A DNA stretch of 64,000 nt, taken from positions 1 to 64,000 of the forward strand of contig CAMZFV010000007.1 of assembly GCA_947306175.1 (NCBI GenBank), in the 5' to 3' direction. The position numbers and the translations under genes were made by a program. Within the stretch, counting starts at the first letter, position 1. Every line of letters starts with the position of its first letter. The notes under the pieces are model-generated. The model was not told the DNA's origin. It saw only the letters and a program-made list of their open reading frames with translations, and searched no databases. Source of the DNA: an uncultured Prevotellaceae bacterium (GTDB lineage: Bacteria; Bacteroidota; Bacteroidia; Bacteroidales; Muribaculaceae). Below are positions 4,871 through 21,300 of this stretch, piece by piece.

Positions 4871-5899
4871 TTACAGGGCTGCGATAAGGGCATCGACGTC
4901 ACTGGGGAGTGTTGCCCAGCTGGTGACAAAGCGGCAATTCATCAGGTCTCCCACGGGATACCACTCCTCAAAAACAAATTCTTTTTTCAGGCGCTCAATG
5001 GTTTCCTGGTCCAACAGAACGAATTGCTGGTTTGTCGGGGAATTGCTGTACATCTTATATCCCTTGGATATGAATGCGTCACGCAAACGCATGGCCTGCT
5101 CAACGGCATGGCGGGCAATCTTGAAGTAGAGGTTGTCCTGCATCAAGGCGTCGAACTGGATACCCAACAGACGACCTTTGGCCAACAAGGCGCCATGCTG
5201 CTTGACAATGGTAAAGAAATGCGCTGGTGCCGGAGCATTAGGATTGGGAAAGACAACCGCCTCGCCGCATAGGGCGCCGCACTTAGTACCGCCAAGGTAA
5301 AACACGTCGCACAAGTCGGCCAACTGCGGCAAGGTCACATCCCCACCCTCTGCCATCAGGCCGTAACCCAGCCGGGCTCCATCGATGAACAACGGCAGGT
5401 TGTATTGCCTGCACACATCGCTTATGGCTGTAAGTTCAGCAAGAGTATAGATTGTGCCCATCTCGGTGGCGAAGGTGATATAGACCATGCCGGGGAAAAC
5501 CATGTGGTCATAGGTAGGGTCAGCGTAGAAGTCATGGAGCCACTGTGACAGCTCATGCACATCCATTTTCCCGTCATGGGAAGGCAGCGCCAGTACTTTG
5601 TGGCCGCCAAACTCAATGGCGCCACTCTCGTGGACGTTGATGTGACCCGTATCAACGGCCAACACACCTTGATAAGACAGCAACATGGCATCAATGACGG
5701 TAGCATTGGTCTGTGTGCCTCCCACGAGGAAAAACACATCGGCATCAGGCTTAGCGCATGCTTTGCGGATTCTTTCTCTGGCAGCCGTGCAGTAGTCGTC
5801 AAGACCGTAACCCGTGGCGCGCTCGTCATTGGTCTCTATCAGCCGCCTGAGGATGGCCTCGTGGCAGCCATTGTTGTAATCGCTTTCAAATGAAATCAT
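4871..5899 (-). CDS. ltaE: Low-specificity L-threonine aldolase / beta-eliminating lyase family
   Basis: A 342-residue PLP enzyme of fold type I, expected to cleave L-threonine or L-allo-threonine to glycine and acetaldehyde. Features include FESDYNNGCHEAILRRL at the N-terminus, YGLDDYC, VGGTQTNATVID, LFIDGARLGYGL with the PLP-binding aspartate, and LGGTKCGALCGEA containing the Schiff-base lysine (about residue 206). It is divergent from the GH13 gene; its -7 box on the minus strand is at 5991-5984 and the leader carries a heptad-repeat array. The symbol is by family resemblance; substrate range is inferred. Confidence 0.88.
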   Translation of the reverse strand: MISFESDYNNGCHEAILRRLIETNDERATGYGLDDYCTAARERIRKACAKPDADVFFLVGGTQTNATVIDAMLLSYQGVLAVDTGHINVHESGAIEFGGHKVLALPSHDGKMDVHELSQWLHDFYADPTYDHMVFPGMVYITFATEMGTIYTLAELTAISDVCRQYNLPLFIDGARLGYGLMAEGGDVTLPQLADLCDVFYLGGTKCGALCGEAVVFPNPNAPAPAHFFTIVKQHGALLAKGRLLGIQFDALMQDNLYFKIARHAVEQAMRLRDAFISKGYKMYSNSPTNQQFVLLDQETIERLKKEFVFEEWYPVGDLMNCRFVTSWATLPSDVDALIAAL

Positions 5900-5902
5900 T
5901 GT

Positions 5903-5972
5903 CTGTAAGTTTTAAGTTGTCAGTTTTAAGTTTTAAGTACGGATACTACCGCCTAAAACCTGACTACTGACG
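5903..5972. repeat. 7-nt repeat array in the threonine aldolase leader
   Basis: TAAGTTT/TAAGTTG/CAGTTTT-type units lead into a centre ACGGATACTACCGCC and then an opposing arm CCTGACTACTGAC. The layout (heptads, GGATRCTACC centre, opposing heptads) matches 48573-48645. Confidence 0.55.
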
Positions 5973-5983
5973 CATTAGTGTTG

Positions 5984-6011
5984 CAAAGGTAATGAAAATG
6001 AACTATCTTTG
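5984..6011. promoter_or_regulatory. Back-to-back -7 boxes for threonine aldolase and GH13 genes
   Basis: On the minus strand TACCTTTG (5991-5984) faces the threonine aldolase; on the plus strand TATCTTTG (6004-6011) lies 4 nt before the GH13 start chosen at 6016. The two boxes are only 12 nt apart, so opposite polymerases probably compete. Confidence 0.6.
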
Positions 6012-6015
6012 TGGC

Positions 6016-7665
6016 ATGAAAGGGAAGAAAAAAACGATTATCTACCAGTTGATGCCACGGTGGTTTACCAATCTCAATGACCATTGTGTGCCCAATGGCA
6101 GCATCCGTCAGAACGGCTGCGGCAAATTCAATGAAATTGACGAGTCAAAATTGCGTTCCATCAAGTCGCTGGGAGCGACTCACGTGTGGTACACGGGCAT
6201 TATTGAGCACGCCACAGCCACCAATTATGCCAAACAAGGGATTGTGCCATGTGACCCTCACGTTGTCAAGGGCATTGCAGGCTCTCCCTATGCCATCCGC
6301 GACTACTATGATGTGTGTCCTGATTTTGCTGTCAATGTAAAAAACCGCATGGCAGAGTTTGAGGACCTTGTCAAGCGCACTCATCACGTGGGGCTCAAGG
6401 TGATTATCGACTTTGTACCTAACCATGTGGCTCGCGAGTATGAGAGCGATGTCAAGCCCGCAGGCGTTCAAGACCTAGGCGAAGGAGACAATCCTATGAT
6501 GTTCTTTGACCCGAGGAACAATTTCTACTACATCACCGGGCAGGAATTCGCTCCTCATGGCATAGAATTAGGCACATATCATGAATTTCCTGCACGTGCG
6601 ACTGGCAATGACTGCTATACGGCATCTCCCAACTGTGATGATTGGTACGAGACCGTCAAACTCAACTACGGTATCGACCCATGGAATGGTAGCACCCACT
6701 TCGACCCCGTGCCAAACACCTGGAAAAAGATGCTCGACATCCTCAAGTTCTGGACTGCAAAAGGTGTCGATGGCTTCCGCTGCGACATGGCACATATGGT
6801 GCCCGTAGCCTTCTGGCAGTGGGCCATCAAGCAAATCAAGGAGATAAATCCCGATTTGATTTTCATTGCTGAGATTTATGACACGGCGCTTTACCGTAGT
6901 TACATCTTCGATGGCGGCTTTGATTACCTGTATGACAAGGTCACATTATACGATACCCTGCGCGGCATCATGTGTAACGGATGGTCCGCCAGTGACCTCA
7001 CCCGCTGCTGGCAGACGGTGGAAGGCATCAACGACCATATGCTTAATTTCCTCGAAAACCATGATGAGCAACGCATAGCATCTCAACAATTCTGCGGCAA
7101 CCCGTTAAAAGCCTTACCAGCCCTTGTGGTCAGTGCCACCATATCCAAGGGACCATTCATGATATATGCTGGGCAGGAATTAGGCGAGCCTGCGGTCGAT
7201 GCCGAGGGTTACAGTGGCCATGATGGACGCACTACTATTTTTGATTACTGGAGCGTCCCCACCCTGCGCCGATGGCACCAGGGCAAGCCCACTACTGAAG
7301 AGCGTCGATTGCGCTCCATATATCGCAAAGTCTTAGTGTTGTGTAATAGTGAGAAGACCCTTGCTTGCGGCCAATTCTTCGACTTAATGTACGTCAATCA
7401 AGAAACACTCAATCCCTATCGCCATTACGCATTCCTGCGCCATGTTGAAGGAGAAATGACGCTGGTGGTGGCCAGCTTTGATGACAATGAAGTGAAAACC
7501 GCCATCCGCATCCCTCAGCACGCTCTCGATTGTGCTCACATGCATCCCGGAAGGCATATTGCCAAGAATATATTTGAAAATCAGGAGGTAGAAGTCACAT
7601 TATCAGGCGACACGCTGTTTCCTGTTCATATCGAGGCTAATTCTTTCGTGATCTGGCATTTCTAA
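6016..7665 (+). CDS. GH13-family alpha-amylase-type glycosidase
   Basis: A 549-residue protein of the alpha-amylase clan acting on alpha-glucans. The four conserved regions are seen: VIIDFVPNHVA (about 130), GFRCDMAH with the nucleophilic Asp (about 257), IAEIYD with the acid/base Glu (about 285) and LENHDEQR with the third acid (about 348). A C-terminal beta domain follows. No signal peptide is visible, so it is probably cytoplasmic, consistent with the phosphorylase at the window end. The ORF track starts at 5992, but the -7 box TATCTTTG at 6004-6011 would then lie inside the gene; ATG 6016 gives MKGKKKTIIYQLMPRWF. Exact specificity is not predictable here. Confidence 0.88.
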   Translation: MKGKKKTIIYQLMPRWFTNLNDHCVPNGSIRQNGCGKFNEIDESKLRSIKSLGATHVWYTGIIEHATATNYAKQGIVPCDPHVVKGIAGSPYAIRDYYDVCPDFAVNVKNRMAEFEDLVKRTHHVGLKVIIDFVPNHVAREYESDVKPAGVQDLGEGDNPMMFFDPRNNFYYITGQEFAPHGIELGTYHEFPARATGNDCYTASPNCDDWYETVKLNYGIDPWNGSTHFDPVPNTWKKMLDILKFWTAKGVDGFRCDMAHMVPVAFWQWAIKQIKEINPDLIFIAEIYDTALYRSYIFDGGFDYLYDKVTLYDTLRGIMCNGWSASDLTRCWQTVEGINDHMLNFLENHDEQRIASQQFCGNPLKALPALVVSATISKGPFMIYAGQELGEPAVDAEGYSGHDGRTTIFDYWSVPTLRRWHQGKPTTEERRLRSIYRKVLVLCNSEKTLACGQFFDLMYVNQETLNPYRHYAFLRHVEGEMTLVVASFDDNEVKTAIRIPQHALDCAHMHPGRHIAKNIFENQEVEVTLSGDTLFPVHIEANSFVIWHF

Positions 7666-7789: not shown

Positions 7790-7946
7790 GAAGGTAGGCG
7801 GCGTCTTGGGAATGCCAATGAAAAAAATGATTTTTTCTTTGGCATTTCGCTCGACTTGCACTACCTTTGCCTGTGGCTAAGGTAGGCTGCGCCTCAACAA
7901 AATCAAAGTATATTTTGCTTTTGTGTTCGACTTGCACTACCTTTGC
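7790..7946. repeat. GACTTGCACTACCTTTGC element, tandem two-unit copy
   Basis: Two consecutive units start with AAGGTAGGCGGCGTCTTGG or AAGGTAGGCTGCGCCTC, pass through a variable hairpin core, and end in TCGACTTGCACTACCTTTGC. Each unit ends in a promoter-like TACCTTTG box; the second is positioned to drive prs. This element and the repeat before it account for most of the 307-nt gap between GH13 and prs, where I see no gene. Confidence 0.65.
7914..7945 (+). promoter_or_regulatory. Promoter of prs within a repeat element
   Basis: TTTG (7914-7917), a 20-nt spacer and TACCTTTG (7938-7945) fit the Bacteroidetes sigma-ABfr consensus. The ATG of prs is 28 nt downstream. Confidence 0.65.
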
Positions 7947-7972: not shown

Positions 7973-8908
7973 ATGGCTGAAATGAAGGTTTTCTCGGGCA
8001 CGAACTCACGTTACGTTGCCTTGAAGATAGCAGAACAACTGGGTGTGGAACTGGGAAGAGTCAATATCTCACACTTTGCCGACGGCGAGTATGAGGTATG
8101 CTATGAGGAACCCGTGCGTGGTGCTGAAGTCTATCTTGTGCAGTCCACATTTAATGCGAGCGAGAACTTAATGGAACTGTTGTTGATGATTGATGCAGCC
8201 AAAAGAGCGTCGGCCCATTCTGTCATAGCAGTCATCCCCTATTTCGGGTGGGCGCGCCAGGACCGCAAAGACAAGCCCCGTGTGTCCATTGCTGCCAAGT
8301 TGGTCGCCAACCTGTTGACTGCAGCTGGTATCGACCGCCTGATCACGATGGACTTGCATGCCGACCAAATTCAGGGTTTCTTTGACATCCCCGTCGATCA
8401 CCTGTATGCTTCCACGATGTTTGTTCCTGACATTGCTTCCCTCGGCCTTAAGGACATGGTCATTGCCTCGCCCGATGTGGGAGGTGCCAAGCGTGCCAAT
8501 TCCTATGCCAAATATTTCAACGCCCCCTTGGTGCTGTGTCACAAGCAGCGTTTGCGCGCCAACGTGGTAGAGAACATGACCATCATTGGCGATGTTAAGG
8601 ATAAGGACGTTATTTTGATCGATGACCTGGTGGACACTGCTGGCACTATCTGCAAAGCCGCCTCGCTGATGAAGGATAACGGTGCACGCAGTGTGCGTGC
8701 CTACATCTCCCATGCTGTGATGAGCGACCCTGCCAGCGAACGTGTCATGGCCAGCGGACTTGACGAGCTGATCATCAGCGACAGCATCCCCTATGACACC
8801 GACCGTTGTCCCAAGGTGAGGGTGCTGAGCTTGGATAAGATGTTTGCTCATGCCATCAAACATGTAAACATCAAGCAGTCCATCAACGATCTATTCCTAT
8901 TCAAATGA
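7973..8908 (+). CDS. prs: Ribose-phosphate pyrophosphokinase
   Basis: Makes PRPP from ribose 5-phosphate and ATP for nucleotide, histidine and tryptophan synthesis. The 311-residue length is standard. Visible signatures are the phosphoribosyl-pyrophosphate loop VILIDDLVDTAGT (about 205-217), the metal/ATP region MDLHADQIQGFFDIPVDHLY (about 126-145), and PYFGWARQDRK in the flexible loop. The gene is monocistronic, with the promoter in the repeat element upstream and a hairpin terminator downstream. Confidence 0.97.
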   Translation: MAEMKVFSGTNSRYVALKIAEQLGVELGRVNISHFADGEYEVCYEEPVRGAEVYLVQSTFNASENLMELLLMIDAAKRASAHSVIAVIPYFGWARQDRKDKPRVSIAAKLVANLLTAAGIDRLITMDLHADQIQGFFDIPVDHLYASTMFVPDIASLGLKDMVIASPDVGGAKRANSYAKYFNAPLVLCHKQRLRANVVENMTIIGDVKDKDVILIDDLVDTAGTICKAASLMKDNGARSVRAYISHAVMSDPASERVMASGLDELIISDSIPYDTDRCPKVRVLSLDKMFAHAIKHVNIKQSINDLFLFK

Positions 8909-9109: not shown

Positions 9110-10009
9110 ATGATGAGAAAACTACTATTTTTCGCATTGACGTTAGGTTTCTCGTTGTGTGCTTCTGCCCAGGTATTGAATGTGACCTCGATTGACAAGG
9201 TCAACCTGCCTGAGCAGGCAGCCGTGGCTGCCATCAGCCCGCAGGGCGACTACCTGCTGCTGACCAGCGCCACCAACCAGGGCCTGACTAAGCTGGACCT
9301 GGCCACGAGCCAGACCCAGGTGTTGAGTACCGCACCCAGTGCCGGTCACAACGTGAAGATCTCGCCCGACGGCCAGACCGTCGTGTATCGAGAGGGCTCG
9401 TTCAACGAGAAGCATCTGCGCATGTCTTCCCTCAAGAGCGTCAACCTCTCTACAGGCCAGAGCCAGGTGCTGGTAAAGCCCACGCGCGACCTGCAGGGTT
9501 ATGACATTAATGGCACCAGCGCAGGTGTTGTGAACAAGGGCAAGTTCAGCAAGAAGGCCATTGGCAATGCCAAGGCCCAGAATCTGCCTGTGCTGTCCAT
9601 TGACAAGGGCCAGCTGATGATCACCGTAAATGGCAAGACCCGCAACCTGTCGCCTAACGGCAGCGGTTTCAGCTACATGTGGCCCTCGCTGTCGCCTGAT
9701 GGCACCAAGGTGCTCTTCTATCAGGCAGCCCATGGCGCATACGTGTGCGACCTTGACGGCAAGAATGTCCGCAAGGTGGGCAAGATGCGCGCCCCGGTAT
9801 GGTATGACGACAATACCGTAGTGGGCATGATCGACCTCGACGACGGCGAGTTCATCTACGCCTCGACCATTGTTGCTGCCACGCTCGACGGCACGACCCA
9901 GACTTTGACGGGCGATGAAACCGTCGCCATGTATCCCCACGCTGCTGCCGGCAAGATTGTATTCAGCACACCCGCTGGCGAGGCATATATTATTAATGTA
10001 ACCGAATGA
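9110..10009 (+). CDS. Secreted WD40/TolB-like beta-propeller protein, copy A1
   Basis: A 299-residue exported protein. The signal peptide (MMRKLLFFALTLGFSLCASA) precedes a series of propeller blades: AAISPQGDYLLLTS, VKISPDGQTVVYREG, WPSLSPDGTKVLFYQAA and APVWYDDNTVVGMID. The SPDG-type motifs resemble the TolB/PD40 repeat. No catalytic motif is seen. Its stop overlaps the start of B1 (ATGATGA), implying translational coupling, so A and B proteins may be needed together. The nucleotide sequence is identical to A2 at 14002 apart from a 3-nt indel and a few bases in the signal peptide. Function unknown; a binding role at the cell envelope is inference. Confidence 0.8.
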   Translation: MMRKLLFFALTLGFSLCASAQVLNVTSIDKVNLPEQAAVAAISPQGDYLLLTSATNQGLTKLDLATSQTQVLSTAPSAGHNVKISPDGQTVVYREGSFNEKHLRMSSLKSVNLSTGQSQVLVKPTRDLQGYDINGTSAGVVNKGKFSKKAIGNAKAQNLPVLSIDKGQLMITVNGKTRNLSPNGSGFSYMWPSLSPDGTKVLFYQAAHGAYVCDLDGKNVRKVGKMRAPVWYDDNTVVGMIDLDDGEFIYASTIVAATLDGTTQTLTGDETVAMYPHAAAGKIVFSTPAGEAYIINVTE

Positions 10010-13000
10010 TGACTGCTATGAAAAAGATATTATTACTTGCCGTAGCCGCCATCATGGCAGCAGGCGCAATGCAGGCCAAGACGGCCGACGAGATCCGCAT
10101 TTATCTGAATCCCGGTCACGGCAGCTGGGGACCCAATGACCGTCCGATGGCGACCATTCCCTACCCCATGCTTGCCGAGACGGGACGTCCCGACACCAAC
10201 GGTTTTTACGAGAGCAACACGAACCTGTGGAAATCCTTCCAGACGCGTGCAACCCTCATCAGGATGGGTATCAAGCCCGAGAACATCACCATGTCGAGGT
10301 ACTACAATGGTCCGTACCCTTATGTTGCGGGAGCACCCGATGCTGAGATGTATAACCGTCCCTTGTCAGAGATATGCGAGGAGGTGGAAGTGGGCAACTA
10401 CGATATGTTCCTGTCGCACCACTCCAACGCTTCAACCGACGGCACATCGACCAACTATCCGCTGATTCTGTATCGTGGCAAGGACGGAGCTGGTGGAGAT
10501 TATGCTCCTAGTAGCCGCGACATGGCATCAGTATGCTGGCCGCTGTTCTATACCAACGAGATTGACCCGATGAACTATTATGGTCCCAACAATCCCAACA
10601 TCCGTGGTGATATTGATTTCTACGGCAGTTCATCGACCCGTGTCGATCCCAATACAGGTCAAGCCTACACTGGTTATCTGGGCGTGCTTAAACATGGCGC
10701 CCCCGGTTTCCTGATTGAGGGTTATTTCCATACCTACCAGCCCGCTCGCCATCGTGCGTTGAATAGTGACTATTGTCACCAGGAAGGTATGCGCATCGCT
10801 CGCGGTATCGGTCAATATTTCGGTCTCACTCCCGATGACAAGGGCTATATCATGGGTACCGTCAAGAACGTGCATGAGCATTTGATTCACAACCTGTACA
10901 AGTACAATGCCACATCAATGGACCAGTGGGCTCCCGTCAATGGCGCCGTTGTCATCCTGTATAAGAATGGTGAGGAAGTGGCACGCTATACCACCGACCA
11001 AAACTACAATGGTGTGTTCGTGTTTGAGGATCTGAATCCCGGCACTTATACGCTGTCCGTTGAGGCAGAGGGTTACAAGCCCCTCGGTGAATATACTGAA
11101 GCCACGGTTGATAGCCAGTGGCAAGAACTCATCACTAAAGCCGCAGGAGACATCGTTGTTGAGGCCAACAAGACAAGTTATGCAGTTCCCCTGCTGGAGG
11201 CCGAAGACTATGAAATCCCCACTGACTTATACCAGAATTATCCTGAGCCCGAATTGCCCGGTTATGTGAAAGCTCCAGTTAAACTGGAACTCACCCGAGA
11301 CAATGGTACGGATTATGAGTTTGACGGCACCATCAAGCGTATGCTCGTTCGCGGCGACAGCACCGTTGTGCTGACCAATGCCGAGGACGGAACGCCTCAC
11401 GTTTACCTGATCAACAATATCAACAAGGTTATCGTTAAGGAACTGAGCATTGTCAATGTAGCTCCCGCCGAGCCCAACAATGCCGGTTACTACAGCCGCC
11501 TGAACGATATCGCCTTCACTGCTGACGGACAACTTGTGGGCGTCAACTGCTTACAGACCCAGTTTAGTGACGGTCAGGTGAATGAGGGCTTTGAGCGCGG
11601 CACGCTGCGCCTGTACAAGTGGGCAGACTTTGACAGTGATCCCATCGAATGGGTAACCACTCAGAACTCAGCCAACTTCTATTACTACCGCGCCCAGTCG
11701 ATCGCTATCGATGGTGAAGCCAATAACTGCGTTGTGACCTTGATGGGTACCAATGATGCGGCTTCCAGCGCAGGAGGCATGAGGTTCCTCAAACTGAATA
11801 TCACCGGTGGCCAGATTGCCAGCACGGTTTACACCGAGAAGACCATTGCGGCCAGCAGCAATTTCACCAAGACGAAAATCGGTGAGCCGCAGATCGTACT
11901 CTCGCCCCGCAACGATGATCAAGTGATGCTCGATGGCGAGAATACGCTGATCATGGAAGTTGCTACCGCCAATGCCAATGGCACCGACAGCGAAGTCGTT
12001 GGTCGATTTGCCGGAGAGGATCGCGACATTCCCGTTAAGGGCGCATCCTTCTTCAAGTATGCCCAGCACCAATTCATGGTAATGCCATACATTGCCGAAA
12101 GTAATGACAATGCTGTCAATGTCGGCGGTATCAAGTTGTATGACATCACGGCTGGTGTTGACCAGGCAGCACTTGTTGCCACCACCAACACCGACCTTGA
12201 GCCACTCGCTTGCCAGTTCATGTCAACGGGTGCCTATGTCAAGGGCGAGGACATCAACCTGTACCTGATGCAGGACAACAAGATGACCAAGTGGCAGGCC
12301 TTTGCAGAGCAGCAACCTGTTGAGCCTGGCGTATTTGCTTACGACTTGAGATTCACCAATGACAACAATATCTATACATTCTTCTTCAATGCCAATGCTG
12401 CAGCACAGACTGCCTATATCACATTCTATGATATTGACGGCAATGAGGTAACCACTATTGAGGTGCCTAATGTTGTTGCTGGAGAGAACAGTATCGAGAT
12501 TGATTGTAAGACGTTGCCCGAAGTTACCGATAACAAGTTGCACTGGACGGTTACCCTTGAGGGTAATCCCATTACGACCATCAGGCGCATCAATCCGCTT
12601 GAACAGAACTACAGCGGTCAGCTGTTTGTCGCTGTTGACAAGTCACCGTCGAGTCCTAAGATGGGTACCATCTACACCGGTAACCGTATTTCCAGTGGCA
12701 GTGCCAGCAACGGTGTTTATGTTTGTGACGTGATGGGTCAACGCGCTAGCGATGATCTTTACCGTGGTGCCCACAACTGGAGCGCCAACTACCGTATGGC
12801 TCTGGATGCACAAGGTAAACTTTACGTACCCGATTGGGGCGATGGCACTTCTGGTGTATTCATCGCTGATCCATTGAATATGGATGGTATCTGGACCGAG
12901 TTCTTTGTTGGAACGCGCAACAGCGATGGTTTGATCACCAACAATGGCGTGAACATCGGTTCGTCTACACCCGGTGTAGCCATTGGCGGAACCGGTGCCG

Positions 13001-13761
13001 ACACCAAGCTGTATGTATATCTTGAGGACTTCGGCAATGGTGTGGGCGTTTACAACATCGGCCAGCCCGACGGCAGTGTCGTTGATACATGGACAACCGC
13101 TCCTAACCAGTATTTTGATGTGGGTTACCTGCAGCTCAACACTAACGGTAACGTTATTGCCGATGCTCAAGGCCGTGGCGTCTGGATTGCACAGTACCGT
13201 GCTGCCGACAAGAATGACGCTAGTGTTCCCTCACTCATCTTCGTTGACAATGAGGGTAACCTGACCTTCAACTCGGGTCGCTCGCCTTACATTGACATGC
13301 TGAATGGTAGTGACCGTGCTGGATTTGCCGTGAATGACGCTTGTGACATGCTCGTTGTCAATGACGGTACCGGCATTCTCCAGTTCTATGACCTGACCTG
13401 GGAGGGCAACACGCCTGCTATCGCACCCAAGTACTCCTATAGGGCCGATGCCCGCAACTCAGCCGGATCCATCTTCCAGATGGCGTTTGACTATGCTGGC
13501 AACCTGGTTTGTGCTGGTGGCAACATCGGTATCTACTCGTTGCCGACGGAGGAGAACATCCACACCACGCCTGCATGTGGAGAATTTGAGGTAGTAGTCG
13601 TTCCCAGTGCTGTCAATGAAATCAATGTGAACAAGACCATTGTGAGTGAGCGTTACTTCGATATCCGTGGTATTGAATACCGTCAGCCCATTGATGGTGT
13701 GAACATTATTGTCCGCACTTACAGCGACGGAACCTCCGACGCCATTAAAGTCATCAAGTAA
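10006..13761 (+). CDS. Secreted amidase_3/beta-propeller protein B1 with T9SS-like C-terminus
   Basis: A 1251-residue secreted protein; the signal peptide is best from M at 10018 (MKKILLLAVAAIMAAGAMQA). Residues about 28-275 look like a zinc N-acetylmuramoyl-L-alanine amidase: LNPGHGSWG and FLSHHSNAS provide the metal histidines and FLIEGYFHTYQ the catalytic-type glutamate. A carboxypeptidase-regulatory-like domain follows (about 280-380; NGAVVILYKNGEEVARYTT), then long propeller-like regions. The tail YFDIRGIEYRQPIDGVNIIV...IKVIK resembles a type IX secretion sorting domain. Presumably it acts on peptidoglycan or muropeptides outside the cell. Overlaps A1 by 4 nt; paralogue of B2. Domain order is seen; substrate is inferred. 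Confidence 0.8.
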   Translation: MMTAMKKILLLAVAAIMAAGAMQAKTADEIRIYLNPGHGSWGPNDRPMATIPYPMLAETGRPDTNGFYESNTNLWKSFQTRATLIRMGIKPENITMSRYYNGPYPYVAGAPDAEMYNRPLSEICEEVEVGNYDMFLSHHSNASTDGTSTNYPLILYRGKDGAGGDYAPSSRDMASVCWPLFYTNEIDPMNYYGPNNPNIRGDIDFYGSSSTRVDPNTGQAYTGYLGVLKHGAPGFLIEGYFHTYQPARHRALNSDYCHQEGMRIARGIGQYFGLTPDDKGYIMGTVKNVHEHLIHNLYKYNATSMDQWAPVNGAVVILYKNGEEVARYTTDQNYNGVFVFEDLNPGTYTLSVEAEGYKPLGEYTEATVDSQWQELITKAAGDIVVEANKTSYAVPLLEAEDYEIPTDLYQNYPEPELPGYVKAPVKLELTRDNGTDYEFDGTIKRMLVRGDSTVVLTNAEDGTPHVYLINNINKVIVKELSIVNVAPAEPNNAGYYSRLNDIAFTADGQLVGVNCLQTQFSDGQVNEGFERGTLRLYKWADFDSDPIEWVTTQNSANFYYYRAQSIAIDGEANNCVVTLMGTNDAASSAGGMRFLKLNITGGQIASTVYTEKTIAASSNFTKTKIGEPQIVLSPRNDDQVMLDGENTLIMEVATANANGTDSEVVGRFAGEDRDIPVKGASFFKYAQHQFMVMPYIAESNDNAVNVGGIKLYDITAGVDQAALVATTNTDLEPLACQFMSTGAYVKGEDINLYLMQDNKMTKWQAFAEQQPVEPGVFAYDLRFTNDNNIYTFFFNANAAAQTAYITFYDIDGNEVTTIEVPNVVAGENSIEIDCKTLPEVTDNKLHWTVTLEGNPITTIRRINPLEQNYSGQLFVAVDKSPSSPKMGTIYTGNRISSGSASNGVYVCDVMGQRASDDLYRGAHNWSANYRMALDAQGKLYVPDWGDGTSGVFIADPLNMDGIWTEFFVGTRNSDGLITNNGVNIGSSTPGVAIGGTGADTKLYVYLEDFGNGVGVYNIGQPDGSVVDTWTTAPNQYFDVGYLQLNTNGNVIADAQGRGVWIAQYRAADKNDASVPSLIFVDNEGNLTFNSGRSPYIDMLNGSDRAGFAVNDACDMLVVNDGTGILQFYDLTWEGNTPAIAPKYSYRADARNSAGSIFQMAFDYAGNLVCAGGNIGIYSLPTEENIHTTPACGEFEVVVVPSAVNEINVNKTIVSERYFDIRGIEYRQPIDGVNIIVRTYSDGTSDAIKVIK

Positions 13762-13790
13762 CCATAATACTGGTTTCAACCTCAAAAGAT

Positions 13791-13825
13791 CAAGCGGCCC
13801 ACTCAAAACGGGTCGCTTGTTTATT
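13791..13825 (+). terminator. Terminator after B1
   Basis: CAAGCGGCCC pairs with GGGTCGCTTG around ACTCAAAAC, followed by TTTATTTG. Its stem resembles the terminator after B2 (CAAGCGGCC / GGCCGCTTG), so the terminator was duplicated with the module. Confidence 0.75.
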
Positions 13826-13895
13826 TGAAACAAGGATATATTCATGAGTTTGCAGGAATTATCATTTTTAACGGATTAATTATCATTGAATTTTA

Positions 13896-13924
13896 TTTGT
13901 TGTTTACATTTTTTAGTATCTTTG
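13896..13924 (+). promoter_or_regulatory. Promoter of propeller gene A2
   Basis: TTTG (13896-13899), 17 nt, then TATCTTTG (13917-13924) followed by CTGCAAT as at A1. It lies downstream of the ORF-track start (13825), which supports the shorter A2 start at 14002. Confidence 0.55.
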
Positions 13925-14001
13925 CTGCAATCATTATATTAAGCAAATATCGTATAGATAGTTTAATAACCATTTTGTTTAACTTTAAGTTTTTACCTTC
14001 T

Positions 14002-14898
14002 ATGATGAGAAAACTCCTTTTCGCATTGACGTTAGGTTTCTCGTTGTGTGCTTCTGCCCAGGTATTGAATGTGACCTCGATTGACAAGGTCAACCTGCCT
14101 GAGCAGGCAGCCGTGGCTGCCATCAGCCCGCAGGGCGACTACCTGCTGCTGACCAGCGCCACCAACCAGGGCCTGACTAAGCTGGACCTGGCCACGAGCC
14201 AGACCCAGGTGTTGAGTACCGCACCCAGTGCCGGTCACAACGTGAAGATCTCGCCCGACGGCCAGACCGTCGTGTATCGAGAGGGCTCGTTCAACGAGAA
14301 GCATCTGCGCATGTCTTCCCTCAAGAGCGTCAACCTCTCTACAGGCCAGAGCCAGGTGCTGGTAAAGCCCACGCGCGACCTGCAGGGTTATGACATTAAT
14401 GGCACCAGCGCAGGTGTTGTGAACAAGGGCAAGTTCAGCAAGAAGGCCATTGGCAATGCCAAGGCCCAGAATCTGCCTGTGCTGTCCATTGACAAGGGCC
14501 AGCTGATGATCACCGTAAATGGCAAGACCCGCAACCTGTCGCCTAACGGCAGCGGTTTCAGCTACATGTGGCCCTCGCTGTCGCCTGATGGCACCAAGGT
14601 GCTCTTCTATCAGGCAGCCCATGGCGCATACGTGTGCGACCTTGACGGCAAGAATGTCCGCAAGGTGGGCAAGATGCGCGCCCCGGTATGGTATGACGAC
14701 AATACCGTAGTGGGCATGATCGACCTCGACGACGGCGAGTTCATCTACGCCTCGACCATTGTTGCTGCCACGCTCGACGGCACGACCCAGACTTTGACGG
14801 GCGATGAAACCGTCGCCATGTATCCCCACGCTGCTGCCGGCAAGATTGTATTCAGCACACCCGCTGGCGAGGCATATATTATTAATGTAACCGAATGA
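14002..14898 (+). CDS. Secreted WD40/TolB-like beta-propeller protein, copy A2
   Basis: A 298-residue duplicate of A1. The ORF track extends it to 13825, but that adds a non-signal leader and crosses the promoter, so ATG 14002 (MMRKLLFALTLGFSLCASA) is chosen. After the signal peptide the DNA matches A1 base for base as far as I can read, and even the two antisense shadow ORFs are identical. The match continues into the first 80 nt of the B gene. Upstream sequence is only loosely similar, so expression may differ. The stop overlaps the B2 start by ATGA, as in the first module. Function unknown. Confidence 0.8.
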   Translation: MMRKLLFALTLGFSLCASAQVLNVTSIDKVNLPEQAAVAAISPQGDYLLLTSATNQGLTKLDLATSQTQVLSTAPSAGHNVKISPDGQTVVYREGSFNEKHLRMSSLKSVNLSTGQSQVLVKPTRDLQGYDINGTSAGVVNKGKFSKKAIGNAKAQNLPVLSIDKGQLMITVNGKTRNLSPNGSGFSYMWPSLSPDGTKVLFYQAAHGAYVCDLDGKNVRKVGKMRAPVWYDDNTVVGMIDLDDGEFIYASTIVAATLDGTTQTLTGDETVAMYPHAAAGKIVFSTPAGEAYIINVTE

Positions 14899-17800
14899 TG
14901 ACTGCTATGAAAAAGATATTATTACTTGCCGTAGCCGCCATCATGGCAGCAGGCGCAATGCAGGCCAAGACGGCCGATGAGATCCGCATTTATCTGAATC
15001 CCGGTCACGGCAGCTGGGGACCCAATGACCGCCCAATGGCAACCATTCCCTACCCCAACCTGCCTGAGACGGGACGTCCCGACACCAACGGTTTCTACGA
15101 GAGCAACACGAACCTGTGGAAATCCTTCCAGACGCGTGCCACGCTGATTAAGATGGGCATCAAGCCAGAGAACATCACCATGTCGAGGTACTACAACGGC
15201 CCGTATCCCTATGTTGCGGGAGCAGCCGATGCTGAGATGTACAACCGTCCTCTGTCAGAGATTTGCGAGGAGGTGGAAATCGGTAACTATGACATGTTCC
15301 TGTCTCATCACTCCAATGCCTTAACAGACGGCACCTCGACCAACTATCCGCTGATACTTTATCGCGGTTATGATGGCTCTGGTCAAGATCTCTCTCCTGG
15401 CAGTCGTGATATGGGATTAACTTGTTGGCCTATATTCTATACTAACGAGATTGACCCGATGACAAACTACAGTCCTACTAGCAGTAATGTGCGTGGTGAT
15501 ATGAGTTTCTATAGCAGTTCGGGCACCCGTGTGGATCCCAACACCGGTATTTCTTACACTGGATCCCTGGTCGTGTTGAGGCATGGAGTTCCCGGTTTCC
15601 TGATTGAAGGCTACTTCCATACCTACCAACCTGCACGTCACCGTGCATTGAATATGGACTATTGCCATCAGGAAGGTGTTCGCATTGCCCGTGGTATTGC
15701 CCAGTACTTTGGCCTCACGCCAGAGAGCAAGGGATACATTATGGGTACGGTGAAAGATGTTCATGAGCATCTTGTTCATAACCTGTATAACTACAACCCC
15801 TCATCGATGGACCAGTGGGCACCCATTAACGGCGCCGTAGTTATCTTGTATAAGAATGGTCAAGAGGTGGCACGTTACACTACCGATCAGAATTACAACG
15901 GTGTGTTCGTATTTGAGGATCTCGATCCCGGCACCTATACACTGGCAGTACAGGCCGAAGGATACAAACCCCTGGGAGAATACACCGAGGGTACTGTTGA
16001 CAACGAGTGGACGGCACTGATTGCTAAGGCTGCTGGTAATCTTGTTGTCGAAGCCAACAAAACGACCTATGCTGTTCCCTTGCTCGAGGCTGCTGAATAT
16101 GAGCCTTCTACAGATCAGTATCCTAACTATCCTGAGCCCGAATTGCCCGGATATGTCACTGCACCAAGCAGCCTTGAACTCACGCATGATGCAGGTACCG
16201 AGTATGATATTGACGGAACCATCAAGCGTATGCTCGTTCGCGGCGACAGCACCGTTGTGCTGACTAACTCAGCCGATGGAACGCCTCACGTTTACCTGAT
16301 CAACAATATTGATAAGGTGATTGTGAAGGAACTGAGCATTGTCAATGTTGCTCCCGCCGAGCCTAATAATGCTGGTTTCTACAGCCGCTTGAATGACATC
16401 GCCTTCACTGCTGACGGACAACTCGTGGGTATCAACTGCGTGCAGACCCAGTATGGCCCGGATTATGTCAATTCAGGCTTTGAGCGTGGCACGCTGCGCC
16501 TGTACAAGTGGGCAGACTTTGACAGTGATCCCATCCAGTGGGTAACCACCCAGAGTTCAGCCAACTTCTTGTACTATCGCGCCCAGACGCTCGCCATCGA
16601 TGGAGCAGCCGACAACTGCCTGGTAAATATCATGGGTACCAATGATGGCGCTTCCAGCGCTGGTGGCATGAGATTCCTGAAACTGAGTATCATCAATAAT
16701 CAAATTGCCGGCTCGATCTATACCGAGAGTACAATTACTGCAGCCAGCAACTTCACTAGGGACAAGATCGGTGTGCCGCAGATTCTTATCTCACCGCGCA
16801 ACGATGACCAAGTGATGGTCGATGGCGAGAACACTCTGATTATGGAGGTAGATCCCGCTGATGTTGATAAAACCAACAGCGAAGTTGTTGGTCGCTTCAA
16901 CGGTGACGCCACCGATACTCCTGTAAAGGGTGCTTCATTCTTCAAGTATGCTCAGCATCAGTTCATGGTAACACCTTATGTTGCTGTAAGCAGGGATGAT
17001 GCAGTCAATGTGGGCGGTATCAAACTGTATGACATCACAGCAGGTTTGGACCAGGCCGCACTCGTTGCTACCACCAATACTGACCTTGACCCGCTCGCTT
17101 GCCAGTTCATGGGCACAGGTGCTAATGTTAAGGACGGTGACATCTACTTGTACTTGATGCAAGATAACAAGATGACCGAGTGGCAGGCCAACTCGGCAGC
17201 ACAGCCCGTAGTCAAGGGTATCTATGCTTATGGCCTGAAGATGGAGGGCGATCAGTTCACTTTCAATTCTAATGACGCTGCTAAGAATGCCTACATCACT
17301 TTCTATGATGAACAGGGCACACCTGTTGCTACCGTCAATGTACCTAATGTACAGGAAGGCGAGAACACTGTCACCATCAACGTCAGTGAACTTGAGGGCG
17401 TAGAACCTGGCAGCACATTGACTTGGGCTGTTACCGTTGAGGGTGATCCCATCACCACCATCCAACGCATCAACGAGGTTGGTCCCACCTACAGTGGCCA
17501 GCTTTATGTCGCTGTAGATAAATCACCGGCAAGTCCCAAGATGGGTACCATCTATGCAGGTAACCGTATCAACAGCACCAGCACTTCAAACGGTGTCTAT
17601 CTGTATGACGTCAACGGCACCCGCGTAAGTAGCCAGGTTTACAGGGGCGACCATGCATGGCGCAACAATTGCCGCATGGCGCTTGATGAGAACGGTAGGC
17701 TCTATGTTCCTGATTGGGGAGATCCCACCTCAGGAGTGTACATTGCAGATCCTGAGAATCTTGAAGGAACTTGGACTGAGTTCTTCAAAGGCATACGTGA

Positions 17801-18686
17801 CGGTAACGGTTTAATCACCAAAGACGGCGTGGCCGTTGGTTCTTCGACACCTGGTGTAGGCATCTATGGCACTGGCGCCGATACCAAGTTATATGTTTAT
17901 CTTGAGGACATGATTGGTGCAACGTCAAATAAGGGCAACATCGTTGGCGTTTACAACATTGGCCAACCTGATGGCAGTGTAGTAGATACCTGGTCAACAG
18001 CTCCCAGCCAAATCTTTGACATCGGTGCGTATGAAGCCAATGGTAATGGCAATGTTATTCCCGACGGTCAGGGCCGTGGCGTTTGGGTAGGCCAGTATCG
18101 TTCTGCCGGCCAGAACACTTCTTCCGTTCCTTCGCTGCTCTTCTTGGATAACAATGGAAACATTAAGTTTAACTCAGGTCTCTCACCCTATCCTGATATA
18201 CTCAATGGTAGCGAACGCTCATTTGCCATCAACGACGCTTGCGACATGCTTGTCGTTAATGACGGTAGCGGTATCTTGCAGTTCTTCGACTTGACTTGGG
18301 ATGGCGACACTCCTGACATCACGCCCAAGTACTCTTACAAGGCTGATGCCCGCACCAGCGCCGGCTCTATCTTCCAGATGGGATTTGACTATGCCGGAAA
18401 CCTGGTTTGCGCCGGTAGCAATATCGGTATCTATTCGATGCCTACCGATGAGAACATCCACACCACTCCTGGTATGGACGTGATCATCATTCCTGCCGAT
18501 CAGACTGGTTTTGACATCAACTGCGATGGCACCACGAGCATTGCCGATGTCACCACGCTCATTGACTACTTGTTAGGTGCTGATCCTCAGCCCATCAACC
18601 TGGATGCTGCCGATGTAAATGGCGATACTGTTGTATCGGTAGCTGATGCTACGACATTGATTGACCTGCTTCTTGAGGGTCTTTAA
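14895..18686 (+). CDS. Secreted amidase_3/beta-propeller protein B2 with dockerin-like C-terminus
   Basis: A 1263-residue paralogue of B1. The signal peptide and amidase region are the same (LNPGHGSWG, FLSHHSNAL, FLIEGYFHTYQ), followed by the same regulatory-like domain and propellers. Much of the protein is diverged from B1, with small indels. The end differs completely: two dockerin type I-like calcium loops, DINCDGTTSIADVTTLIDYL and DVNGDTVVSVADATTLIDLL, replace the T9SS-like tail. Dockerins usually bind cohesins; in Bacteroidales their partner is often unknown. Like B1 it probably acts on cell-wall material outside the cell, attached by another route. Preceded by A2 with a 4-nt overlap and followed by a strong terminator. 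Confidence 0.8.
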   Translation: MMTAMKKILLLAVAAIMAAGAMQAKTADEIRIYLNPGHGSWGPNDRPMATIPYPNLPETGRPDTNGFYESNTNLWKSFQTRATLIKMGIKPENITMSRYYNGPYPYVAGAADAEMYNRPLSEICEEVEIGNYDMFLSHHSNALTDGTSTNYPLILYRGYDGSGQDLSPGSRDMGLTCWPIFYTNEIDPMTNYSPTSSNVRGDMSFYSSSGTRVDPNTGISYTGSLVVLRHGVPGFLIEGYFHTYQPARHRALNMDYCHQEGVRIARGIAQYFGLTPESKGYIMGTVKDVHEHLVHNLYNYNPSSMDQWAPINGAVVILYKNGQEVARYTTDQNYNGVFVFEDLDPGTYTLAVQAEGYKPLGEYTEGTVDNEWTALIAKAAGNLVVEANKTTYAVPLLEAAEYEPSTDQYPNYPEPELPGYVTAPSSLELTHDAGTEYDIDGTIKRMLVRGDSTVVLTNSADGTPHVYLINNIDKVIVKELSIVNVAPAEPNNAGFYSRLNDIAFTADGQLVGINCVQTQYGPDYVNSGFERGTLRLYKWADFDSDPIQWVTTQSSANFLYYRAQTLAIDGAADNCLVNIMGTNDGASSAGGMRFLKLSIINNQIAGSIYTESTITAASNFTRDKIGVPQILISPRNDDQVMVDGENTLIMEVDPADVDKTNSEVVGRFNGDATDTPVKGASFFKYAQHQFMVTPYVAVSRDDAVNVGGIKLYDITAGLDQAALVATTNTDLDPLACQFMGTGANVKDGDIYLYLMQDNKMTEWQANSAAQPVVKGIYAYGLKMEGDQFTFNSNDAAKNAYITFYDEQGTPVATVNVPNVQEGENTVTINVSELEGVEPGSTLTWAVTVEGDPITTIQRINEVGPTYSGQLYVAVDKSPASPKMGTIYAGNRINSTSTSNGVYLYDVNGTRVSSQVYRGDHAWRNNCRMALDENGRLYVPDWGDPTSGVYIADPENLEGTWTEFFKGIRDGNGLITKDGVAVGSSTPGVGIYGTGADTKLYVYLEDMIGATSNKGNIVGVYNIGQPDGSVVDTWSTAPSQIFDIGAYEANGNGNVIPDGQGRGVWVGQYRSAGQNTSSVPSLLFLDNNGNIKFNSGLSPYPDILNGSERSFAINDACDMLVVNDGSGILQFFDLTWDGDTPDITPKYSYKADARTSAGSIFQMGFDYAGNLVCAGSNIGIYSMPTDENIHTTPGMDVIIIPADQTGFDINCDGTTSIADVTTLIDYLLGADPQPINLDAADVNGDTVVSVADATTLIDLLLEGL

Positions 18687-18710
18687 TCAATAAAGTCTAA
18701 TCTTTAACTA

Positions 18711-18744
18711 CAAGCGGCCTTGTCTTTCAGGGCCGCTTGTTTTG
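18711..18744 (+). terminator. Terminator after B2
   Basis: CAAGCGGCC (18711-18719) and GGCCGCTTG (18731-18739) pair perfectly around TTGTCTTTCAG and are followed by TTTTG. Confidence 0.8.
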
Positions 18745-18855: not shown

Positions 18856-21300
18856 ATGATTGATTTATTCGATAATATTGATGCTGACTTTAATGATGGT
18901 GGAGCTCGTGTTGTTCCCATCATTACTGAGATTCACGAAGTGAATGACGGCACTGACATACAAGATAATAAGGCTGAGGACATCCCTATCTTGCCACTGC
19001 GCAACATGGTCTTGTTCCCTGCTATGACCATGCCTGTCAGCGTGGGACGCGAGAAATCGATGCGCCTCATCAAGGAGGCAGAGGAAAGGCACAATTCGAT
19101 TGCTGTAATCTGCCAACAGGACAACCGCATTGATGACCCCATGGAGCGCGACCTGTACCGATATGGCACCATCGCTACCATCGTCAAAATCCTGGAACTG
19201 CCTGATGGTTCTACCAATGTCATCCTGCAAGGACGTTCGGCATGTAAGCTGGACCATATTGCTCAGGTAGTGCCTTACCTGCGCGGTTCGGTCATGCTGG
19301 TCGAGGACAAGTTGCCGCTGGCTGGTGACAAGGAGTTTGAAATGTTGATGCAGTCAATCGCCGAGGTCACCTTGCGCATGTTGCGCAATATGGGCAATAA
19401 CGGGCGTGAATTGGCCTTTGCGATGAAGAACATCGATAATCCCATGTATCTGATGAACTTCCTGGCAACCAATATCGCCTTTGATCCCGACCAGAAACAG
19501 CACATGCTGGAAGAGCGTGACATCAAGAAACGCGCTTACCTGCTCTATTCGTTGCTGACCCGAGAAGAACAACTGGTGGAAATCAAGGCCAATATCCAGT
19601 CCCGCACCCGCGAAGACCTGTCACAGCAGCAACGCGAACATTTCCTGCAACAGCAGATCCGCACCATCCAGGAAGAACTTGGTACCGACATCGATGACAT
19701 CGAGGAGTTGCATGAGCGCAGCACCAAGATGAAATGGAGCGAAGAGATTCAGAAGCAATTTGACAAGGAATTGCGCAAACTGGAGCGCCTCAATCCTCAG
19801 ACGCCTGATTATTCAGTTCAATACGCCTATCTCGATGTCATGCTCAACCTGCCCTGGGAGACCTACACCGAGGACAATTTCGACCTCAAGAAGGTGGAGG
19901 AGAAACTCAACAATGACCATTATGGCCTGGAGAAGGTAAAAGACCGCATCCTTGAGCATCTGTCAGTGCTCAAGCTGCGTGGCGACCTCAAGGCGCCCAT
20001 CCTGTGCCTCTATGGCCCTCCCGGTGTCGGCAAGACCTCGTTAGGCAAATCCATTGCCGACGCCCTTCACCGTGAGTATGCCCGCATTTCGTTGGGTGGC
20101 TTGCATGATGAGGCCGAGATACGTGGACACCGTCGGACATACATCGGCGCCCTGCCTGGACGTATCATCGCCGCATTGGGTAAGTGCGGCAGCAACAACC
20201 CCGTCATCGTGCTCGATGAGATTGATAAGGTGGGTCAAGACTTCAAGGGCGACCCTTCATCGGCATTACTTGAGGTACTGGATCCCGAACAGAATGGCCA
20301 CTTCCATGACAATTACCTTGACGTGGATTATGACCTGTCAAAGATTTTGTTCATTGCTACGGCCAACAGTCTGGCGACCGTAAGCCGTCCCTTACTCGAC
20401 CGTATGGAGGTGATAGAAATCAACGGTTATATTCCCGAGGAGAAACTGGAGATTGCCAAGCGCCATCTCGTCCCCAAGGAATTGACCGAGAATGGTTTCA
20501 AGAAGAATGAAATCAAGTTTGGAAAACAAGTCATCTTAAAAATGATCGAGGATTATACCCGCGAGTCGGGCGTACGCCAGCTGGAGAAGAAAATCGCCAC
20601 GGTTCTGCGCCGTGTCGCCCGCCACAAGGCTAGTGGTGATCCCTACCCCACAAGCATCAAGGTGGAAGACCTGAAGGAATACTTGGGAGCTCCGGATTAC
20701 AGCCGCGACAAGTATGAGGGCAACGAATTTGCCGGCGTGGTGACTGGTCTTGCCTGGACCGCCGTAGGTGGCGAAATCCTGTTTGTGGAGTCTTCGCTGG
20801 CGCGAGGCAAAGGCGAAAAATTGACCTTGACGGGAAATCTGGGTGACGTGATGAAGGAATCGGCCGTGATTGCGTTACAATACCTGCGTTCGCATTGCTC
20901 GCTTCTAGGCATTGACCCAAACCTGTTTGACAAGTACAATATCCACATCCATGTGCCTGAGGGCGCCATCCCCAAGGACGGCCCGTCGGCAGGTGTGACA
21001 ATGGTGACCTCGCTGGCCTCATCGTTCACTCAGCGCAAAGTGAAAGACCATCTGGCCATGACAGGCGAAATCACCCTTCGCGGCAAGGTATTACCCGTTG
21101 GCGGTATCAAAGAAAAAATCCTTGCTGCCAAACGTGCCGGCATCAAGGACATTATCTTGTGTAAGGATAACCGCAAGGATATCGAGGAAATCAACGAGGT
21201 TTATCTGAAAGGATTGACCTTCCACTACGTCAACACCATTAAAGATGTGCTTGACTTTGCTCTCCTGCCCGAGAAGGTCAAAGACGCAATAGAGTTGTAA
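18856..21300 (+). CDS. lon: ATP-dependent protease La (Lon)
   Basis: Degrades damaged and regulatory proteins in the cytoplasm. The 814-residue protein has the LonN substrate domain (about 45-250, starting [20 protein letters not shown]), a coiled-coil linker, an AAA+ module with Walker [14 protein letters not shown] (about 387) and Walker [11 protein letters not shown] (about 452), and the protease domain with catalytic Ser in [10 protein letters not shown] (about 709) and Lys in [14 protein letters not shown] (about 752). The start at 18856 gives an acidic extension before LonN, as in other Bacteroidetes. Monocistronic; the palindrome in its leader may mediate regulation. Confidence 0.98.

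Follow-up and report, generated by a model that had tools for sequence, protein, structure and literature searches.

A doubled propeller-amidase module between prs and lon: homogenised A genes, mostly diverged B genes and a possible role for A in amidase control

How can two adjacent operons share one gene almost to the letter while their next genes differ widely, and what does the shared gene do for its neighbour? The question is raised by a 64,000-nucleotide stretch of DNA (the window), which is contig C7 of the 3.49-Mb draft genome G000 (121 contigs, 86% complete), whose closest relatives are mostly metagenome-assembled genomes (MAGs) from the ruminant gut. Here ORF calling gives the order prs-A-B1-A-B2-lon, that is two head-to-tail bicistronic units flanked by prs (7973-8908) and lon (18856-21300). 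The explanation that we consider rather probable as a whole is a doubled A-B module, where A controls the amidase of B and where recombination homogenises A but spares most of B.

Layout and domains of the two A-B units

The features of the two units are collected in Table 1. A listed ORF with a TTG start from 13825 is an upstream extension of A2. The ATGA overlap of each A stop with the following B start, reported in an earlier note on this DNA, is present at both junctions according to the ORF calling. An Rfam search of the window gave no match.

Table 1 Features of the doubled A-B module (positions in the window).
Feature	Position	Strand	Description
A1	9110-10009	+	299 aa, secreted TolB-like (PD40) beta-propeller, Sec signal peptide, without sorting tail
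Identical 960-nt tract, copy 1	9129-10088	+	starts in the A1 signal peptide and extends into B1; global alignment
ATGA stop/start overlap A1-B1	10006-10009	+	ORF calling; 4-nt overlap also in 38 relatives
B1	10006-13761	+	1251 aa, predicted exported amidase, two propellers, T9SS-like C-terminal tail
B1 Amidase_3 domain	10099-10803	+	Pfam alignment range; H38, E69, H139 and E238 present
B1 body	11146-13593	+	two beta-propellers around an Ig/FlgD-like domain; AlphaFold, Foldseek
B1 C-terminal T9SS-like sorting tail	13594-13758	+	homologous to the ends of other G000 proteins
Terminator-like hairpin after B1	13790-13823	+	RNA fold z -5.8; absent from a simple terminator scan
Bacteroidales-type promoter before A2	13896-13924	+	TTTG-N17-TAnnTTTG; motif search
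A2	14002-14898	+	298 aa; copy of A1, differing in the signal peptide only
Identical 960-nt tract, copy 2	14018-14977	+	global alignment
ATGA stop/start overlap A2-B2	14895-14898	+	ORF calling
B2	14895-18686	+	1263 aa, predicted exported amidase, two propellers, dockerin I tail
B2 Amidase_3 domain	14988-15692	+	by alignment to B1
B2 dockerin I domain	18513-18674	+	Pfam, above cut-off
Terminator-like hairpin after B2	18709-18741	+	RNA fold z -7.1; absent from a simple terminator scan

The promoter motif found ahead of A2 occurs 6 times in the window, where 1.0 is expected. A terminator-like hairpin after each unit and this promoter before A2 make it probable that unit 2 is transcribed separately, and units 1 and 2 would be independently expressible. 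Two near-identical promoter-like elements (..CGACTTGCACTACCTTTG) are located ahead of prs at 7838-7869 and 7914-7945, 76 bp apart. The element was counted 19 times in the genome and the reversed control 0 times, and one copy lies 36 nt before an A-amidase fusion on contig C2 (see below).

A1 scores 23 bits with Pfam PD40 (cut-off 20.9), and A carries a signal peptide but lacks a sorting tail; a lipobox was not seen. AlphaFold gives a propeller fold for the C2 homologue of A, which Foldseek matches to TolB/Pal. In sequence the propeller nearest to A is TolB of the Tol-Pal system, which is also one of the nearest in structure, but A lacks the N-terminal TolB domain, no Pal neighbour was seen, and the 27.1 bits of A with the TolB equivalog model TIGR02800 do not reach its cut-off of 343.

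The B proteins consist of an Amidase_3 domain, a CarboxypepD_reg-like domain, two propellers around an Ig/FlgD-like domain and an exchangeable tail. The body of B1 was modelled by AlphaFold with a mean pLDDT of 89.5 and a pTM of 0.84, and its Foldseek matches are tandem propellers. The zinc and catalytic residues H38, E69, H139 and E238 are kept in 82 of the 83 aligned B proteins; the remaining one is the A-amidase fusion, whose glutamate falls outside the aligned part and is present in a separate alignment. With Amidase_3 (PF01520), B1 scores 15.4 bits, under the cut-off of 27, and B2 has no entry for this family among the Pfam matches listed, whereas homologues in the C2 array and at loci L045 and L052 score 44-63 bits. 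Likewise, a PDB sequence search with the N-terminal part of B1 gave no amidase relative, but a structure search with the C2 fusion does find CwlD (in the CwlD:GerS entry), AmiC, AmiA and LytH (in the LytH:ActH entry) for the amidase and TolB for the propeller. Taken together, B is predicted to be an enzyme, an N-terminal Amidase_3 peptidoglycan amidase with intact zinc and catalytic residues, and the domain make-up proposed earlier, a secreted propeller beside a secreted amidase that itself bears propellers, agrees with this.

Identity of A and divergence of B

According to a global alignment of the two units, A1 and A2 differ by one substitution (9124) and one 3-nt indel (9126-9128), both in the signal peptide, so that the earlier note was right to call the two genes the same in DNA outside the signal peptide; its placing of the first difference after the tract, at 10089 versus 14978 and about 80 nt inside B, was exact. 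Between A1 and A2 dS is 0.01 and dN is 0. The wide divergence of B1 and B2 that was said to follow is real, but it is reached by a stepwise fall and not at once: successive 100-nt windows past the tract show 91, 90, 87, and 76% identity, a drop from approximately 91% to 70-76% across about 350 nt, and further on most values lie at 53-89%, rising and falling locally. Calculated for amino-acid segments, dS between B1 and B2 is 0.42 for residues 28-120 and 0.9-2.0 beyond. A run of 960 identical nucleotides beside sequence of 70-80% identity is far beyond chance. No other close copy of A was found in G000, the C2 array containing two distant A-type propellers.

The same pattern is seen in other genomes, and all genomes that show it, G000 included, are MAGs (draft or metagenome assemblies). 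G059 (CAMYUW01), which belongs to another species, has the order prs-A-B1-A-B2-lon as in G000, and its A copies are also identical once past the indel in the signal peptide, which is that of G000. Comparison of A across the two genomes gives a difference of 16% (dS 0.75), while dS is 0.01 within each, where the few differences are confined to the signal peptide. The more distant L125 (Muribaculaceae UW_MP_MUR1_1) has an A-B-A-B array of its own, with approximately 93% identity (92.7%) between the A copies, about 95% in their core, and 62% between the B copies. The breakpoint varies by genome, being located 83 nt into B in G000 and approximately 248 nt into B in G059, and L125 shows an identity step at the A/B border. 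In the trees, B1 of G000 is sister to B1 of G059, and B2 joins a dockerin-tailed B clade of other species.

Since A1 equals A2 in G000 and in G059 despite a difference of 16% between these species, and since the pattern is repeated in milder form in L125, we conclude that homologous recombination has homogenised A. In both species unit 1 and unit 2 are told apart by the same 3-nt indel, so that the tandem must predate the homogenisation. Gene conversion of A, or its replacement with a breakpoint inside B, had been suggested and is supported by these data, but unequal crossing-over fits equally well and cannot be told apart from conversion here. The left edge of each tract is the end of the upstream homology and its right edge falls where B divergence rises, much as would be expected from ordinary homologous recombination; selection for equal A copies is possible but unnecessary. 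The picture that we propose is that two classes of B alleles have been co-resident since long ago at the core prs-lon site, and that recombination between the A genes would repeatedly equalise A1 and A2 and spill a variable distance into B, with the remainder of B1 and B2, already 20-30% apart, escaping homogenisation.

The identity of A1 and A2 could also follow from a recent duplication of the whole unit, provided that B then diverged very fast under selection. We regard this as ruled out, with next to no probability left to it, by the synonymous divergence of B and by the trees: beyond residue 120 dS between B1 and B2 matches the scale seen between species, and B1 and B2 cluster with different B proteins of other species while A1 equals A2 within both G000 and G059, for which reason the earlier claim that a single recent duplication is insufficient stands. 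An artefact, where a single A gene or two slightly different ones were collapsed by the assembler, deserves a little more weight but is still improbable. Both G000 and G059 (about 120 contigs) are drafts, and short-read metagenome assemblers can fuse near-identical repeats, but unique flanks surround each A copy, the same unit-specific indel appears in two independent assemblies, and L125 retains real differences together with high A and low B identity. An assembler could have merged slight differences between A1 and A2; the differences kept in L125 and the unique flanks argue that it did not make the whole pattern. As to the origin of unit 2, we give an even chance to its acquisition from another species by homologous recombination, with A overwritten later, the alternative being duplication in place; such an acquisition is compatible with the homogenisation of A set out above. 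The position of B2 in the dockerin-tailed clade speaks for acquisition, and so does the distribution of B tails among species, to which we now turn.

Exchange of B tails at the prs-lon site

The order prs-A-B-lon recurs in most close relatives with contigs reaching far enough, a single A-B unit at prs-lon being the usual state among species. The orthologous B genes end in either a T9SS-like tail (..RYYDIRGIEYSQPVEGVNIIVRTYSDGSTQSVKVIK) or a dockerin. The tail type changes 2 times on trees built from the middle and C-terminal segments of B but 7 times on the lon tree, the latter being no fewer than with shuffled labels, and from this comparison it seems that recombination at the core locus carries B alleles from one species to another, although the evidence is moderate as lon may itself recombine. 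For an acquired unit 2 the chance-level number on the lon tree against the low number on the B-segment trees is favourable, as is the placing of G000 and G059 apart from each other on the lon tree, with starred branches between them; the possible recombination of lon and the weak support of the deep forks count against it.

The tail of B1 is common to some two dozen other G000 proteins and matches no T9SS sorting model, including TIGR04183. The position-equivalent B tail of Hoylesella buccalis reaches 34.5 bits with TIGR04183 (T9SS type A, cut-off 23), the tail at L151 falls just under the cut-off with 22.3 bits, and G000 encodes the T9SS translocon protein SprA (SprA_N, 617 bits). Because the tail is shared by these proteins, the H. 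buccalis tail passes the model and SprA is encoded, B is probably exported by the T9SS. In its Sec signal, its CTD-like tail and the presence of SprA in the genome it resembles the T9SS cargo of Bacteroidota, but its tail at prs-lon differs in alternating with a dockerin between species. Similarly, B2 terminates in a dockerin I domain like the proteins of cellulosomes, but G000 has at least 150 dockerin I domains (150 of 286 candidates scored) and no cohesin detectable at E 0.001 in the 86% of the genome at hand, and the cohesins of the genus are few and weak. The idea of dockerins in the absence of any cohesin had to be softened at the genus level, where a weak cohesin passes the cut-off in 35 of 73 genomes. 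Another dockerin of the window lies at 25963-26127. A protein encoded on contig C43 of G000 (L038) bears a dockerin and, further on, a T9SS-like C-terminal tail, and the two types of tail are consequently not mutually exclusive. The role of the dockerins of rumen Bacteroidota in their genetic context has been described as "not defined yet" (PMC7480376), and the alternation of T9SS-like tail and dockerin on one orthologous enzyme bears on this role.

Pairing of A with B and the possible role of A

A survey of A genes gave 83 of them in 79 named loci. A adjoins B on the same strand in 80 of the 83, with a 4-nt overlap in 38, and the remaining three sit at contig ends. Among 295 evenly drawn Bacteroidales genomes A was found in nine and was beside B in all nine, including G310 with a weaker B (2e-22) below the first threshold. 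The sole B without A in these 295 genomes (G332) begins 111 nt from a contig end. Cultured carriers of the pair are Hoylesella saccharolytica, H. loescheii, H. shahii and H. buccalis as well as Prevotella conceptionensis. A lack of co-occurrence in other genomes, which the earlier note had named as a ground for refutation, is clearly contradicted by these counts, and the two genes are obligate neighbours.

A second array in G000 (contig C2, 126.2-131.5 kb) contains a natural fusion, where A and the amidase are joined by a linker in one 645-aa chain with no internal signal peptide. After it comes a further A-B pair, whose amidase has 803 aa and ends in a canonical T9SS tail. In G060 three A-B pairs follow one another, two of them with bare amidases of 345-360 aa and no sorting tail. 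The core of the module therefore consists of A and Amidase_3-CarboxypepD_reg, to which the propellers and tails of B have been added. A single 1515-aa A-B ORF (L103 2955-7502, = L069) was rejected as a working fusion: it has a short deletion and an internal B signal peptide and has lost the end of A, and it is apparently degenerate or an assembly error.

A further type of A-B unit is present in L050 (6260-10216 / 5367-6218), L051, L077, L084, L086, L144 and L146, in reverse order or, strand-wise, with B before A; the distance to the first unit is roughly 2 kb in some species. Its B is approximately 1320 aa and dockerin-tailed, and its A shares no more than about 43% identity with A1 (L050, L051), a level indicating that this A is not homogenised.

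Obligate adjacency and one genuine fusion mark A as a dedicated partner gene for the B amidase. In the mechanism that we propose, A would be made first, translationally coupled to B via ATGA, and exported by Sec to the periplasm as a TolB-like propeller. B, a putative Sec-exported Amidase_3 enzyme acting on peptidoglycan, would be directed to the surface or to a complex by its C-terminal tail. In the periplasm A would bind the amidase part of B and control its activity, either keeping the enzyme competent or switching it on at the right place, as in GerS-CwlD and ActH-LytH, and A may also hold B safe until export. A has its own signal peptide and no sorting tail, and it may part from B at that step. 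We infer the binding of A to B from the genetics only; an AlphaFold model of the natural A-amidase fusion gave no confident contact between the two parts (pTM 0.55, linker pLDDT below 50).

Neither GerS nor ActH is a propeller, and EnvC and NlpD are LytM-type proteins. Several of the amidases found by the structure search rely on a protein partner, and in the case of CwlD the binding of GerS takes place outside the active site and stabilises the zinc; the discovery of such partners goes back no more than about 15 years, and there is no propeller among those that the paper names (PMC8496864). The A-B pair resembles CwlD-GerS of Clostridioides difficile and LytH-ActH of Staphylococcus aureus in having an Amidase_3 enzyme that would need a dedicated extracytoplasmic partner, but B is a very large protein whose tail would sort it to the surface, and A is always encoded by the adjacent gene and is once fused. 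With AmiA/AmiB/AmiC and their partners EnvC/NlpD it has in common the Amidase_3 fold, the zinc site and the principle of control by a periplasmic partner, but A is a TolB-like propeller; on inspection, no obvious inhibitory helix was seen in the AlphaFold model of the fusion. The best reading is that A is comparable in role to GerS and ActH, with an unrelated fold. In the open-access full-text literature we found no paper on the A-B pair and none joining PD40 with this amidase; papers on T9SS and amidases that came up deal with other topics. The earlier statement that no nameable system corresponds to this one holds for the pair as such, but the principle of a dedicated protein partner is known for Amidase_3 enzymes.

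By analogy to these systems A is most likely a dedicated periplasmic partner of the B amidase domain. Roles as an activator, as a restrainer until export and as a folding or export chaperone would all fit, and two observations make us lean to activation or licensing: A occurs fused to the amidase, and a single A sequence serves two B proteins that have diverged. A competing view, which we consider unlikely though not negligible, is that A is an immunity or holding protein that inhibits B in the periplasm and so spares the cell from lysis, while exported B acts on other bacteria, much as in toxin-immunity pairs. The order of A then B with translational coupling, the missing sorting tail of A and the obligate linkage would all suit such a pair, and B alleles that are swapped between species and diversify are reminiscent of antagonistic proteins. 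On the other hand, fusion to the amidase in one chain would be odd for an immunity protein, the minimal amidases of G060 have no sorting tail, and immunity proteins usually track their toxin, whereas A1 equals A2 beside two B proteins 20-30% apart.

Returning to A as a partner that controls the amidase, we suggest only tentatively the bolder version of this reading, that A is the first of a new class of propeller-type obligate regulators of exported peptidoglycan amidases and that the tail of B is a modular address tag, where a dockerin would take over the task of a T9SS sorting domain; the two tails would be swapped between species at a single core locus, with recombination keeping the regulator identical. 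If true, an obligate and sometimes fused propeller partner would widen the list of Amidase_3 partners and give a tractable pair for testing. The tandem itself also offers a clear example from nature of concerted evolution within an operon, where one gene is affected and its neighbour is mostly spared.
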